Positions 27,870 through 32,862 of a DNA stretch of 34,782 bases are shown here, piece by piece (position 1 is the first letter of the stretch; each line of letters begins with the position of its first letter). The translations under genes were made by a program, and so were the position numbers. The notes under the pieces are model-generated. The model did no database searches, had not been told where the DNA came from, and saw nothing but the letters and a program-made list of their open reading frames with translations. This DNA is from Nitrospinota bacterium. GTDB lineage: Bacteria; Nitrospinota; Nitrospinia; Nitrospinales; Nitrospinaceae. The stretch spans positions 1-34,782 of the forward strand of contig JAOUPX010000020.1 of the NCBI GenBank assembly GCA_029879645.1, in the 5' to 3' direction.

Positions 27870-27941
27870 TAGGCGCGGGCGGTTTCGAACCGCCGACCCC
27901 TTGCATGTCAAGCAAGTACTCTACCCCTGAGCTACGCGCCT
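27870..27941 (-). tRNA. tRNA-Val (anticodon GAC)
   Basis: Read on the minus strand, the acceptor AGGCGCG pairs with CGCGCCT, the D arm is GCTC-AGGGGTA-GAGT, and the anticodon stem CTTGC/GCAAG encloses loop TTGACAT with anticodon GAC. The T arm is GGCGG-TTCGAAA-CCGCC. The discriminator is A, and CCA is not encoded. It lies 171 bp upstream of thrS in the same direction and could share its transcript. Confidence 0.95.
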
Positions 27942-28314
27942 GTTAATCCAAAATTCCGATGCGGATGAAACGACATTCTAAGACCTGCTGTCATTTTGTC
28001 AAGGCCGAATTCTATCGGACAAAATCCTCAAAAACCCTTGAAAAACAGCATGTTGAACTATTTACGCTCAAAAGTCAACTGGAACCGCGTCTGTCGATCA
28101 AAAGAGGGAGCGGATGCATGAAAACGGGCACTTTCTGCATTGCGCCGACTCCCCGCCGCCGGTCCTCCCATCGACTCTTCAGCATGAATCTCATTGTTTT
28201 TAGCCGGGTTACAATTATTTTCAGATTCCCTGTCAACCGATTCCCCTCCCGCGCGTTGTACTGGATAACGGCTGCGAATCCGTTAAACTATTTTAAATAT
28301 AAAGGAGAGGTATC
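27942..28314. other. Gap between tRNA-Val and secreted repeat protein
   Basis: This 373-bp divergent intergenic region must hold promoters for tRNA-Val/thrS (minus) and the repeat protein (plus). An open plus frame (27959-28321) has no protein-like character. An inverted repeat TAACGG (28266-28271) / CCGTTA (28280-28285) lies 30 bp before the start codon and could be an operator. A good AAGGAGAGG ribosome-binding site precedes 28315. Confidence 0.45.
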
Positions 28315-28722
28315 ATGTTGAAGAAAACGATATTGGGAGCATTCAGTCTGTTGATCGCCATCCCCGCCACCACCGCCCTGGCCGACGGTCCCGGCCAGAG
28401 AATCGAAAACCGCCTGGATCACCGGGGTGACGTCATTAACCAGCGCCTGGATCAACGCGGCGCGAATATCAATGACCGGCTGGATCAACGCGGATCCAAC
28501 ATCAACGATCGGCTCGACCAGCGGTCCCAGCAGGCTTGGGAGAATGGCAAACCGAGACTGGCCAAACGTCTCGACCGCAAAGGGGACCGGATTGAACGGC
28601 GCCTGGACCGCAAAGGTAATCGCATCGAACGCAGGCTCGACCGCAAAGGCGACCGCATCGACCGGCGCCTCGACCGCAAGGGCAAACGTATTCATCACAG
28701 AATGCACCACCGCGGACATTAA
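28315..28722 (+). CDS. Secreted hendecad (11-residue) repeat protein
   Basis: This 135-residue protein has a signal peptide (residues 1-23, LKKTILGAFSLLIAIPATTALA). The rest is built on an 11-residue repeat of the form xxRLDxxGxxI. Four early copies are Gln/Asn-rich (NDRLDQRGSNI). After a short break (QQAWENGKPRLA) come four strongly basic ones (RRLDRKGDRIE), ending in a His-rich tail. An 11-residue period suits a right-handed or straight coiled coil, with alternating Arg/Asp for salt bridges. I do not recognise a family. It has AAGGAGAGG before the start and its own terminator after, so it is probably a single-gene transcript. Confidence 0.88.
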   Translation: MLKKTILGAFSLLIAIPATTALADGPGQRIENRLDHRGDVINQRLDQRGANINDRLDQRGSNINDRLDQRSQQAWENGKPRLAKRLDRKGDRIERRLDRKGNRIERRLDRKGDRIDRRLDRKGKRIHHRMHHRGH

Positions 28723-28734
28723 GCGGGTTAAAAT

Positions 28735-28772
28735 TCCGGCGGGGGGAGGGTTACCCCTCTGCCGGATTTTTT
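28735..28772 (+). terminator. Terminator after the repeat protein
   Basis: TCCGGC (28735-28740) pairs with GCCGGA (28761-28766), with inner G-rich/C-rich pairing, followed by TTTTTT. It separates the repeat-protein transcript from the sigma-factor module. Confidence 0.85.
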
Positions 28773-28797
28773 ATGTTGAATCTTTTTCAGGAAATGA

Positions 28798-29349
28798 ATG
28801 CGGATGGACCGCCCGGCAATGGACGACTTTCTGGCTACGGTAGAGCGCAAGGCTTTCCGCATGGCCGAGTTCGCCACCCGCAATTCCGATGAGGCATTGG
28901 ACATCGTGCAGGACGCCATGATACGTTTGGTTAAGAACTATGCCGCCAAACCGGAAACGGAATGGCAACCGCTGTTCTACCGGATTCTGCAGAACGGCAT
29001 CCGCGACTGGGCACGTAAAAAAAAGGTGCGCGACCGTTGGGACGGCTTGCGAAACTTATGGCGTGGCGGCAGTGAGGAAAATCGGGAAGACCCGATTCAA
29101 ACCCTGGCCGATCCGCACGGGAAACATCCCGGCGAGCAGGCGGCGCTCAAGGATTCATCCGCCGCGCTGGATACGGCCCTGAAGACCCTGCCCCTGCGGC
29201 AACAGCAGGCGTTTCTCCTGCGCGCCTGGGAAGAAATGAGCGTTGCGGAAACCGCGCAGGCCATGAACTGTTCGGAGGGTTCGGTGAAAACGCATTACTC
29301 CCGCGCCTTGCAGACTCTGCGCGACCTATTGGAAGATCATTGGCCATGA
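28798..29349 (+). CDS. ECF-type RNA polymerase sigma factor
   Basis: This 183-residue group 4 sigma factor redirects RNA polymerase to special promoters. Region 2 is at about 10-75 (AFRMAEFATRNSDEALDIVQ, then DAMIRLVKNY and FYRILQNGIRDWARKKK). Region 4 is at about 125-180 (LPLRQQQAFLLRAWEEMSVA, then CSEGSVKTHYSRALQTLR). AGGA lies just before ATG. The stop overlaps the next start (ATGA). The following genes (a TM protein, a small secreted protein and a DUF3106-like protein) reproduce a module known from Proteobacteria, where the second gene is thought to be the anti-sigma. Confidence 0.93.
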   Translation: MRMDRPAMDDFLATVERKAFRMAEFATRNSDEALDIVQDAMIRLVKNYAAKPETEWQPLFYRILQNGIRDWARKKKVRDRWDGLRNLWRGGSEENREDPIQTLADPHGKHPGEQAALKDSSAALDTALKTLPLRQQQAFLLRAWEEMSVAETAQAMNCSEGSVKTHYSRALQTLRDLLEDHWP

Positions 29350-29708
29350 ACGATCAGGAAAAAGAAAAACAATTTATCGACAACGTCAAAAAGGCGTTGG
29401 ACCTCGATGCGCAGAAACTCGACGCGGGCACGCAATCGAAACTCAACCGCATCCGCCAGAAAGCGCTGGACGCGGGCGAACGAAAGAGTTTCGACATTCG
29501 GCGATGGTTCACTCTGCCGGTAGCGGGCTGGGCGGCCACCGCCTGTCTGATTGTGCTGGGACTGACTCTATATATGAAACCCTCCAATGGAACGCTCCCG
29601 CCGCTGGAAGACATCGACCTGCTGGCCGCGGAAGACAATCTGGAATTTTACGACAGCCTCGAGTTCTACGCCTGGCTGGCCGAGGAAGAAGTCGATGCCG
29701 CCGGGTAA
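29346..29708 (+). CDS. Single-pass membrane protein, DUF3619-like putative anti-sigma factor
   Basis: This is 120 residues from the ATG at 29346, overlapping the sigma stop by 4 bases. A charged cytoplasmic N-terminus (KKALDLDAQKLDAGTQSKLN) precedes one membrane helix at about 57-77 (LPVAGWAATACLIVLGLTLY). The C-terminus is acidic and aromatic (EDNLEFYDSLEFYAWLAEEE). The layout fits DUF3619-type proteins encoded directly after ECF sigma genes, and also fits an anti-sigma factor. That role is inferred from context, since no zinc anti-sigma motif is present. Confidence 0.8.
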   Translation: MNDQEKEKQFIDNVKKALDLDAQKLDAGTQSKLNRIRQKALDAGERKSFDIRRWFTLPVAGWAATACLIVLGLTLYMKPSNGTLPPLEDIDLLAAEDNLEFYDSLEFYAWLAEEEVDAAG

Positions 29709-29943
29709 GGCGACACTGTGGGGCGCGATCTTCCTGCTGGGATGGTTAAGCGGTCCGGCCCTCGCGCAGGAACAGGGCATTGACCCTGCCGGACAGGAGG
29801 ATATGGAAATGCCTTCCCTGGAACTGCTGGAGTTTCTGGGAAACTGGGAAACGGACGACGGCGAATGGATCGATCCGGAAGAAATGGAGCAAATCGCTCT
29901 GGGCGATGAGGAAAAGACGAATGGCGATGCAACACACAAATAA
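29695..29943 (+). CDS. Small secreted acidic protein of the sigma module
   Basis: This 82-residue protein starts at ATG 29695, 14 bp inside the preceding gene, with GAGGAAG upstream. The signal peptide is LWGAIFLLGWLSGPALA. The mature part is strongly acidic and carries SLELLEFLGNWETDDGEWID, a segment I associate with short proteins accompanying such sigma modules. It overlaps the next gene by 23 bp. Its function is unknown. Extreme acidity opposite the very basic DUF3106-like neighbour suggests they could bind each other, which is inference only. Confidence 0.75.
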   Translation: MPPGKATLWGAIFLLGWLSGPALAQEQGIDPAGQEDMEMPSLELLEFLGNWETDDGEWIDPEEMEQIALGDEEKTNGDATHK

Positions 29944-30463
29944 ACTGGCGGCCCTGTTGGGATTTTTTATATGCCTGATGATTGTATCCCCGGCGGGTTG
30001 GGCCCAGCAGTCCGGAGTGCCGTGGGACCGGTTGAGCCCCGACGAACAAAAGGTGTTGCAACCGTTTGCCGACCGTTGGAATCAACTGCCGCCGGACAAA
30101 CAGGCGCACCTGCAAAAAGGTGCGAACCGCTGGCGCAACCTCACCCCAGACCAGCGCCGCAACATGAAACAAAGGATGAAAACCTGGCAACAGATGACAC
30201 CGGATCAGCGCCAGCGGGTCCGGAGAAAGTTCGAACACTTCAGCAAACTGCCGCCTGAAGAACGCAAACAACTGCGCCGCTCCCGCCAATGGTTCAACAA
30301 CCTGCCGCCGGAAAAAAAACAGCGACTGCAAAAACGCTGGCGCAATATGCCGCCTGAACAACGCAAACAATTCCTGAAACGCCAGCACCCCAGGCAGTCC
30401 ATGCAACGCAAACATCGCAACATGACACACCAGCCACCGCGACAACAAAGCCGCCACCGGTAA
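29921..30463 (+). CDS. Secreted DUF3106-like basic repeat protein
   Basis: This is about 180 residues from ATG 29921 (GAGGA 8 bases upstream; ATG 29906 or 29927 are alternatives). The signal peptide is KLAALLGFFICLMIVSPAGWA. The mature protein is a series of W/L-x-LP/TPDQR units, such as NQLPPDKQ, RNLTPDQRR, QQMTPDQRQ, SKLPPEERK, NNLPPEKKQ and RNMPPEQRK, which is the pattern of DUF3106. It is very basic (Arg/Lys/Gln) and ends in a His/Arg-rich tail. DUF3106 genes commonly follow ECF sigma/DUF3619 pairs, and the role is probably envelope stress related. Confidence 0.85.
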   Translation: MAMQHTNKLAALLGFFICLMIVSPAGWAQQSGVPWDRLSPDEQKVLQPFADRWNQLPPDKQAHLQKGANRWRNLTPDQRRNMKQRMKTWQQMTPDQRQRVRRKFEHFSKLPPEERKQLRRSRQWFNNLPPEKKQRLQKRWRNMPPEQRKQFLKRQHPRQSMQRKHRNMTHQPPRQQSRHR

Positions 30464-31960: not shown

Positions 31961-31996
31961 TTGACTAATGTATATGGGTATCATATACTTATTTTA
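31961..31996 (+). promoter_or_regulatory. brnT promoter with overlapping palindromic operator
   Basis: -35 TTGACT (31961-31966), a 17-bp spacer and -10 TATACT (31984-31989) form a near-consensus sigma-70 promoter. A perfect palindrome GTATATG-GGTAT-CATATAC (31970-31988) covers the spacer and most of the -10, ideal for repression by the BrnA antitoxin. The brnT ATG (31996) is 7 bases after the -10, where transcription should begin, so the mRNA is predicted to be leaderless. Confidence 0.85.
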
Positions 31997-32313
31997 TGGA
32001 TACCCATGACCTCTTGCGGAAATGTACCGGGTTTGAGTGGGACGAGCACAACACTGATAAAAACTGGCAAAAGCATCAAGTAACTTCATCCGAGTGCGAG
32101 GAGGTATTCTTCAACCGGCCTCTGGCGGTTGCGGATGATGTCAGACATTCTGAGAAGGAAAATCGTTTTTATGCTCTGGGGAATACAAACGCCGGAAGGT
32201 TTCTTTTTGTGGTCTTTACCATCCGCAGGAGTCAGGTCCGTGTCATTTCGGCAAGGGACATGAACCGGAAAGAGAGAAAGGTATATCAATCCCATGAAGA
32301 AGAGAGTTCCTGA
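31996..32313 (+). CDS. brnT: BrnT-type ribonuclease toxin
   Basis: This 105-residue type II toxin cleaves RNA and is neutralised by BrnA. The family pattern is visible: FEWDEHNTDKNWQKHQVTSS, then FFNRPLAVADD, RFYALGNTNAGRFLFVVFTI, and RVISARDMNRKERKVY. There is no ribosome-binding site because the predicted transcript starts at or next to the ATG. It overlaps brnA by 20 bp, the usual toxin-first order of this family. It sits inside the repeat-bounded segment at tRNA-Asn. Confidence 0.9.
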   Translation: MDTHDLLRKCTGFEWDEHNTDKNWQKHQVTSSECEEVFFNRPLAVADDVRHSEKENRFYALGNTNAGRFLFVVFTIRRSQVRVISARDMNRKERKVYQSHEEESS

Positions 32314-32563
32314 GTTCAAAAGCGAAGACGAGGAGAGGAAGTTCTGGGCAACCCGCGACTCGACCGAGTACGTGGACTGGAAGAAGGCCAAACGGGTCGT
32401 CCTGCCCGAGCTTAAGCCCTCACTCAAGACCATATCCCTCAGGCTTCCTGAATCCATGCTTGAGGAACTCAAACTTCTGGCCCATAAGAAGGATGTTCCT
32501 TATCAGTCGCTCCTCAAGATATTCCTGTCAGAAAAAATCCGGGAAGAGTTAAAGGCGCAGTGA
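32294..32563 (+). CDS. brnA: BrnA-type antitoxin (ribbon-helix-helix)
   Basis: This 89-residue antitoxin and autorepressor has an N-terminal toxin-binding part with FWATRDSTEYVDWKKAKRVV. It is followed by a CopG-like ribbon-helix-helix segment LKTISLRLPESMLEELKLLA and then VPYQSLLKIFLSEKIREEL. It starts within the end of brnT (AAGAG upstream). The 19-bp palindrome over the brnT promoter is its likely operator. Confidence 0.9.
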   Translation: MKKRVPEFKSEDEERKFWATRDSTEYVDWKKAKRVVLPELKPSLKTISLRLPESMLEELKLLAHKKDVPYQSLLKIFLSEKIREELKAQ

Positions 32564-32784: not shown

Positions 32785-32800
32785 TTCTGGCTCCGGAGAC
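32745..32800. repeat. 56-bp perfect direct repeat, tRNA-proximal copy
   Basis: This is the partner of 31865-31920. On the minus strand it runs from the T-stem end and acceptor strand of tRNA-Asn through CCA into the terminator hairpin ACCCGCC...GGCGGGT with its T-run (32745-32784). Here it is joined to the complete tRNA. Confidence 0.95.
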
Positions 32801-32862
32801 AGGACTCGAACCTGTAACATTTCGGTTAACAGCCGAATGCTCTACCATTGAGCTACTCCGGA
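32788..32862 (-). tRNA. tRNA-Asn (anticodon GTT)
   Basis: On the minus strand acceptor TCCGGAG pairs with CTCCGGA, the D arm is GCTC-AATGGTA-GAGC, the anticodon stem TTCGG/CCGAA has loop CTGTTAA (anticodon GTT), and the T arm is ACAGG-TTCGAGT-CCTGT. The discriminator G is followed by encoded CCA (32790-32788). Its 3' end forms part of the direct repeat bounding the brnTA segment. Confidence 0.96.

Follow-up and report, generated by a model that had tools for sequence, protein, structure and literature searches.

A predicted helical hairpin of 11-residue repeats encoded behind the promoter box of an apparently unstudied ECF sigma factor

Introduction

The periplasmic proteins Spy and CpxP are small, exported, all-helical and basic, fold as a dimeric four-helix cradle, and are controlled by CpxR/BaeR. 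Long antiparallel helical hairpins are found in the chemoreceptors (MCPs), in which the two arms gain or lose repeats together; these hairpins are built of heptads, are cytoplasmic and linked to the membrane, and carry a conserved signalling tip. A period of 11 residues, in turn, is a feature of the apolipoproteins A1, A4 and E (PF01442) and of other amphipathic 11-mer helices. Spy, which is induced by envelope stress, is described as binding negatively charged clients with a concave, predominantly positive surface (PMC8144458), while CpxP is described as a negative-feedback inhibitor of the Cpx system, cpxP being the most induced Cpx target (PMC4985592). Boxes reported for other ECF sigma factors include TGATCC...CGTA and GGAATA/GT (PMC5507510, PMC6180224).

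Here we analyze a gene, called RLD, within a 34,782-nucleotide stretch of a Nitrospinota genome (contig JAOUPX010000020.1, assembly GCA_029879645.1), referred to as the window. Its product resembles Spy and CpxP in being small and, by prediction, exported, all-helical and basic, and its position as first gene of a stress-sigma operon invites comparison with the induction of the one and the feedback of the other. Unlike the four-helix cradle, however, RLD is predicted to form a long, straight hairpin of 11-mers whose length varies, and what precedes it is an ECF sigma box, as against the CpxR/BaeR control of Spy and CpxP. It differs from the MCP hairpins in being made of hendecads and in being a tiny, free and putatively exported protein. 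With the apolipoproteins it has the 11-residue period and weak profile matches in common, but its hydrophobic strip is thin, its arms are matched in length, and its score falls below the cut-off. The surrounding genes look like other ECF sigma/anti-sigma modules, with a sigma factor above the cut-off, a membrane-spanning anti-sigma candidate behind it and a box heading the operon; they stand apart in the box itself, TGTCAACC-N15-CGTT, of which the genome holds one perfect copy.

A putatively exported protein of 11-residue repeats

The RLD gene (28315–28722, + strand) has homologues and encodes a protein of 135 residues, a signal peptide followed by 11-residue repeats in two arms of four units each. 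The ATG start is preceded by AAGGAGAGG. The signal peptide, assigned by eye to residues 1–23 (28315–28383, +), runs from MLKK through a hydrophobic stretch to ...TTALA|DG, and pLDDT over these residues is below 50. The initial annotation had proposed a signal peptide followed by an array of hendecads, and the periodicity bears this out. Self-identity of the mature protein is 0.55 at lag 11 and 0.44 at lag 22, compared with a best value of 0.256 over lags 3–24 in 5000 shuffles, and the hydrophobic moment peaks at 1.16 at 98.2 degrees (11/3), compared with 0.44 at the heptad angle of 102.9 degrees.

The array consists of four units, a break and four further units, with partial flanks. The N-arm (28411–28542, +) contains four RLDxRGxxINx units, the last of which is degenerate (RLDQRSQQAWE); the turn NGKPRLAK (28543–28566, +) breaks the register by 8 residues; and the C-arm (28567–28698, +) contains four RLDRKGxRIxx units. 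Net charge, taken as K+R minus D+E, is 0 for the N-arm, +11 for the C-arm and +16 for the mature protein, whose pI is 11.6. The neutral first half and basic second half noticed earlier are therefore real, and in 60 of 64 hairpins of the family the charge per unit is more basic in the C-arm than in the N-arm. The accompanying switch from Gln-rich to Arg-rich composition is also present, but it does not fall along one rod as had been supposed: its boundary lies between two arms, at a conserved Gly break.

The C-terminal tail of the window protein has 5 His among its last 15 residues. In the tails of 59 homologous ORFs, the last 15 residues contain a mean of 1.73 His versus 0.48 expected from the body of the protein, with at least three in 18 of the 59; Cys is absent from these tails, and the His residues are not conserved, many members having none.

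The opposite strand is also open across the array, as a by-product of the repeat codons, for 143 codons (28288–28719, −). Since this reverse-strand ORF is longer than the RLD gene, gene callers that rely on length may choose it. We rejected it as a real gene, the + strand being favoured by the homologues, the signal peptide and the start context.

Two arms that change length together

In 64 arrays from the 59 homologous ORFs, the repeats run in register, are offset by 8 residues, and run in register again, with units such as RLDQRGANIND in the N-arm and RLDRKGNRIER in the C-arm. The unit before the break is degenerate, its repeat Gly being replaced by Ala or Ser in 61 arrays, and the Gly of the turn that follows is kept in 62. 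Units were counted with a PSSM-based parser that assigned the degenerate turn unit to the N-arm; no hairpin was parsed in three of the 59 ORFs (two from L093, one from L095), which stand outside every arm count. Arm length ranged from 2 to 7 units.

The two arms were equal in 41 of the 64 hairpins (4/4, n=20; 5/5, n=9; 3/3 and 6/6, n=5 each; 7/7 and 2/2, n=1 each), compared with 17.9 on average, and never more than 34, over 20000 shuffles. Exact equality depends on the assignment of the degenerate unit to the N-arm; the correlation and slope given below do not. By the same parser 23 hairpins were unequal, for example 4/6 in L008 and 7/4 in L102. Because shuffling ignores relatedness, independent contrasts were added, using the first hairpin of each of 42 loci and a 42-row maximum-likelihood tree built from the sigma factors that accompany them. 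N-arm and C-arm lengths were correlated with r=0.86 and a slope of 0.96 (p=2e-13; reached by 0 of 2000 tip permutations), the sigma tree serving as a proxy for the history of the RLD gene and being weak at its deep forks. A sign test over supported branches yielded 4 independent pairs, too few for significance; the C-arm changed in the same direction in 3.6 of them on average and in the opposite direction in 0.0.

Copy-number variation, which the initial annotation had named as something to look for, is seen within the window's own genus, where members with 4/4, 5/5 and 7/7 arms occur, together with 3/3 in a paralogue. Two tandem members (L006, L007) contain two hairpins in series. A second RLD paralogue, with 3/3 arms and a basic tail, lies downstream of a 4/4 member in the same genome (L004:3953–4541, also L046). 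The coupled arms make a clear example of a repeat array in which folding seems to set the copy number, two arrays within one gene being kept equal.

Predicted structure

AlphaFold2, run with 16 aligned sequences from the window and the loci, modelled the window protein as two helices, 26–76 and 80–134, with a mean pLDDT of 81.7, a pTM of only 0.60 and block pLDDT of 87–97 over residues 31–130. An ordered structure, the absence of which would have spoken against the initial annotation, is thus predicted. The tandem member L006 was modelled as four helices of like length (18–74, 78–130, 138–194 and 198–248; pLDDT 77.5, pTM only 0.51). Helical repeats are easy for AlphaFold2, and the coupled arms are therefore stronger evidence for a hairpin than the model. 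Taken together, the equal arms, the near-invariant Gly of the turn and the model indicate that RLD very probably folds as an intramolecular helical hairpin, in place of the single rod first envisaged.

Comparison of the model with the PDB returned only generic long hairpins among the matches listed, MCP chains included, with a best Z of 10.8; for long helices a Z under about 13 may mean nothing. Spy and CpxP were not among the 50 matches listed, an absence that is not evidence against them. A sequence search of solved structures with RLD gave no match below E 0.5.

Family status and distribution

No Pfam or NCBIfam model matched the window protein at its cut-off, in agreement with the earlier remark that no named family was known for it. 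The apolipoprotein model PF01442 scored 25 bits (cut-off 90) and matched 15 of 16 RLD members with a best E of 8.7e-12, the 11-residue period being held in common; the SpiroCoCo coiled-coil model NF047514 scored 14.4 bits (cut-off 75) and matched 4 of the 16, with E down to 1.1e-6. Cross-matches of this kind are common for charged helices. LTXXQ (PF07813) matched neither the window protein nor appeared among the families matched by the 16 members.

RLD proteins were found in 19 of 77 Nitrospinota genomes, in 37 of 369 gammaproteobacterial genomes (the class of a Chromatiales genome), 29 of them at E 1e-15 or better, and, for the Desulfobacterota group, in 13 of 148 genomes of the class that includes a Syntrophobacter genome. 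The other eight gammaproteobacterial matches were weak (E 1e-8 to 1e-3) and were excluded from the 29; none occurs in the list of genomes with DUF3106, a family discussed below. The plasmids searched yielded no RLD protein. One contig labelled as a Halobacteria archaeon (L009) carries an RLD–sigma pair of bacterial type, probably through a binning error in that MAG.

A literature search returned no description of the RLD protein or its module, the main ECF classification lying outside the scope of that search, so that the sigma group may already be numbered. Neither DUF3106 nor DUF3619 was found in any paper by this search, and the sole match for TGTCAAC together with ECF was a DksA study in P. 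aeruginosa. In the libraries searched the RLD family has no name, and the ECF sigma system that goes with it appears not to have been studied.

The promoter box

An ECF-type box, TGTCAACC-N15-CGTT followed by GTA, lies upstream of the RLD gene at 28231–28257 (+). The 3.2 Mb genome has no other perfect copy and no site with one mismatch; 9 further sites have two mismatches, compared with 20 for the reversed control.

In 44 of 47 RLD loci outside the Desulfobacterota group, the pattern TGT(C/A)AAC(C/G)-N14-16-CGTT lies no more than 450 nt upstream of the first repeat; L145, whose upstream sequence is too short, is not in this count. These 44 are the only matches in the 1.06 million strand-bases of the 47 loci, where the reversed pattern gave 0, and two of the three loci that missed carry, by eye, a box with one change. 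Where the sigma gene of gammaproteobacteria lies away from RLD, the same box heads the sigma operon in six of seven cases (L188–L192 and L195, the exception being L193). Two of these boxes, those of L188 and L192, fall inside the 5' end of a stop-to-stop frame, ahead of a sigma factor of normal length. In the Desulfobacterota group, 6 of 7 RLD genes are preceded by a variant, GTAAACC-N15-CGTC, which also precedes sigma in 5 of the 9 sigma/DUF3106 regions examined (L237–L241). The presence of the variant at both places indicates that the box of the target and the box of the sigma operon change together. Among 40 gammaproteobacteria chosen for DUF3106, TGTCAACC-N15-CGTT occurred at 55 sites compared with 9 for the reversed control, mostly one or two per genome.

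Judged from these sequence patterns, the RLD gene is very likely a target of this ECF sigma factor, and among the apparent targets of its stress-type sigma it is the most constant one in three bacterial phyla. An odd repeat protein would so become the signature target of an ECF stress system, apparently unstudied, that Nitrospinota share with many Gammaproteobacteria, and the promoter box, combined with the hairpin rule, is concrete enough for the regulon to be found in any genome.

The sigma operon

The ECF sigma factor encoded downstream of RLD (28798–29349, +; 183 residues) matches NF006550/PRK09047 with 236.9 bits (cut-off 173), as well as Sigma70_r2 (28.3 bits) and Sigma70_r4_2 (65 bits), both above cut-off. 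It is followed at 29346–29708 (+) by a putative anti-sigma factor with a cytoplasmic N-part, one membrane helix and an acidic C-tail, assigned from its position after sigma, which is kept across loci; its match to DUF3619, at 16.1 bits, is below the cut-off of 22.2. Next comes a small acidic exported protein of 82 residues (29695–29943, +) with a conserved LLEFLG-W motif, whose family is present in most sigma-bearing loci, and then an exported, strongly basic DUF3106 protein (29921–30463, +; PF11304, 108.8 bits, cut-off 24.3). The products fall into two charge classes. Median charge is −11 over the last 40 residues of the anti-sigma family and −15.5 over the last 55 of the small acidic family, and +25 over the last 120 of the DUF3106 family and +13 for the RLD family. 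The idea that the small acidic protein is a homologous mimic of the acidic anti-sigma tail found no support, as profile comparison gave a probability of 0.4 of 100; charge alone is shared.

The initial annotation had placed the repeat protein next to a sigma module. The relationship proved closer: RLD is the first member of the module and carries its promoter box. In 35 of 51 loci, RLD is directly followed by sigma on the same strand, namely 14 of 14 in Nitrospinota, 21 of 30 in a mostly gammaproteobacterial group and 0 of 7 in the Desulfobacterota group. These figures are a by-hand count with profiles of four neighbour families over loci with at least 500 nt downstream, for which L055, L056, L121 and L143 were left out; L002–L005 and L010, which are the same places as L048, L044, L046, L047 and L045, respectively, were used once, and L059, L060 and L061, with no ORF of three or more units, stand outside the neighbour counts. 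In 15 of 18 genomes where sigma was not adjacent or the contig ended, DUF3106 was present elsewhere. Across the 369 gammaproteobacteria, DUF3106 occurs in 24 of 29 with a strong RLD match and in 77 of the 340 others (odds ratio 16, p=1.2e-10, relatedness ignored). The 77 genomes with DUF3106 and no strong RLD match indicate that the module can do without RLD.

In the window, a hairpin with a T run resembling an intrinsic terminator lies between the RLD and sigma genes (28735–28774, +). A conserved RLD–sigma terminator was nevertheless rejected as a general feature, since a comparable structure is present in only 14 of 35 loci.

Other proteins behind the box

Further proteins are encoded behind copies of the box. 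DUF4382-like lipoproteins, directly behind a box copy in five gammaproteobacterial genomes (L252, L279–L282), are a likely second target; the one compared with Pfam scores above the cut-off, and the other four look alike by eye. One box is followed by an LTXXQ/Spy-like exported protein at 19 bits, below the cut-off of 24.3, and further extra copies stand before an exported protein rich in Gly and before a DUF3106-like one; no obvious exported product lies behind some others (for example, L263, L265 and L267).

Genomes without RLD have other exported repeat proteins (L220, L227, L230) or nothing in the slot between box and sigma. The Gly-rich exported repeat protein of gammaproteobacteria, which has no Pfam match, occupies the sigma promoter slot in L220 and sits behind a separate box in L274. 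In L238 and L240, of the Desulfobacterota, an exported heptad protein of DRKEL type with a central SGASKAEIA-like turn lies between the variant box and sigma, and may be the counterpart, in heptads, of the RLD hairpin. In L209 and L210, from another family of Nitrospinota, the protein behind the same box is built of a different 11-residue repeat, RRDARKEKVQD, and has no Gly turn. The filling of one promoter slot by unrelated exported repeat proteins suggests selection for a physical kind of protein and not for one sequence.

Proposed role and alternatives

The reading that we put forward, at about even odds, is that a dedicated envelope-stress sigma factor has RLD as its main target, and that RLD is a basic periplasmic hairpin that works in the manner of Spy and CpxP. 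An envelope signal would release sigma and lead to strong synthesis of RLD, its export and its binding. Transcription of RLD would start from the TGTCAACC-N15-CGTT promoter, and in the window's genus read-through of a leaky terminator would add sigma, anti-sigma, the acidic protein and DUF3106. The exported protein would fold into an antiparallel helical hairpin with an equal number of repeats in each arm, about 8 nm long for 4+4 units at 1.5 Å per residue, in which the L/G/I hydrophobic strips of the hendecads pack between a near-neutral arm and a strongly basic one. RLD would then be a stress-induced, ATP-independent periplasmic binder that holds acidic or unfolded envelope clients; it may also, or instead, close a negative feedback loop by binding the anti-sigma factor at its acidic tail in the periplasm. 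The opposition of basic RLD and DUF3106 to the acidic anti-sigma tail and small acidic protein suggests such a partner. This charge pattern, together with the positive surface of Spy and the feedback by CpxP, leads us to favour, by analogy, a Spy/CpxP-like role as chaperone or in feedback, to which, taken by itself, we give somewhat less than an even chance. That further products behind the box are likewise exported, one of them weakly Spy-like, points the same way; against it stands the absence of any sequence kinship between RLD and Spy or CpxP.

The main rival, which we regard as unlikely, makes RLD a spacer or polyanion-binding rod in the envelope, its basic arm lying on lipopolysaccharide, exopolysaccharide or peptidoglycan and the length of the hairpin setting or bridging a distance, as a shield or spacer made under stress. 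The net charge of the mature protein and the conserved basicity of the C-arm would suit such binding, and a span of 2 to 7 units with both arms still matched, as well as the members with two hairpins in series, would suit a rod. The occurrence of 4, 5 and 7 units within one genus, however, is ill-suited to a fixed distance; Pfam and NCBIfam matched no lipid anchor, peptidoglycan-binding domain or beta-barrel, and about 2 in 11 residues of each unit are aliphatic, few for a membrane-binding helix.

Families such as ZraP and CnrX respond to metal stress, and RLD could be a binder of this type, its His-rich C-terminus holding Zn, Cu or Ni and its sigma sensing metal. The enrichment of His in the tails over the body, the five His of the window protein and a weak EF-hand-like match in a product of the same operon slot (L230) point in this direction, but with tail His not conserved and Cys absent, we consider it improbable; a metal transporter may lie nearby, beyond the few neighbours run against Pfam. 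Less probable still is an amphipathic 11-mer helix that coats lipid surfaces like apolipoproteins or alpha-synuclein: the PF01442 matches share its period, but the window protein scores far below that cut-off, its hydrophobic strip of L, I and Gly is narrow, and the coupled arms argue that the helices are packed on each other and not on lipid. That the array is a chance, low-value and unstable repeat without function, expressed by accident of location, would fit its varying copy number and the open reverse strand, but is highly improbable given that turn, arm coupling and promoter box are all shared by Nitrospinota, Gammaproteobacteria and a Desulfobacterota class.

If the favoured reading of RLD as a Spy/CpxP-like target of a dedicated sigma factor is extended, an admittedly speculative and rather unlikely picture can be drawn of an undescribed envelope-stress response in Nitrospinota, Gammaproteobacteria and Desulfobacterota, with a dedicated ECF sigma and an almost single-site regulon. 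The length-matched RLD rod would be both effector and gauge, its arm length (2–7 hendecads, about 3–12 nm) being selected as a periplasmic ruler or binding platform; stressed envelope surfaces and the acidic anti-sigma tail would titrate its basic arm between them, and other exported repeat proteins take the same slot in lineages that lack it.

Other features of the window

Downstream, at 31996–32563 (+), the window encodes a BrnT toxin and a CopG/BrnA-type antitoxin, both above their Pfam cut-offs; PADLOC gave no match for this pair. The RLD region lies between two tRNA genes on the reverse strand, tRNA-Val(gac) just upstream (27870–27941) and tRNA-Asn(gtt) downstream (32788–32862).
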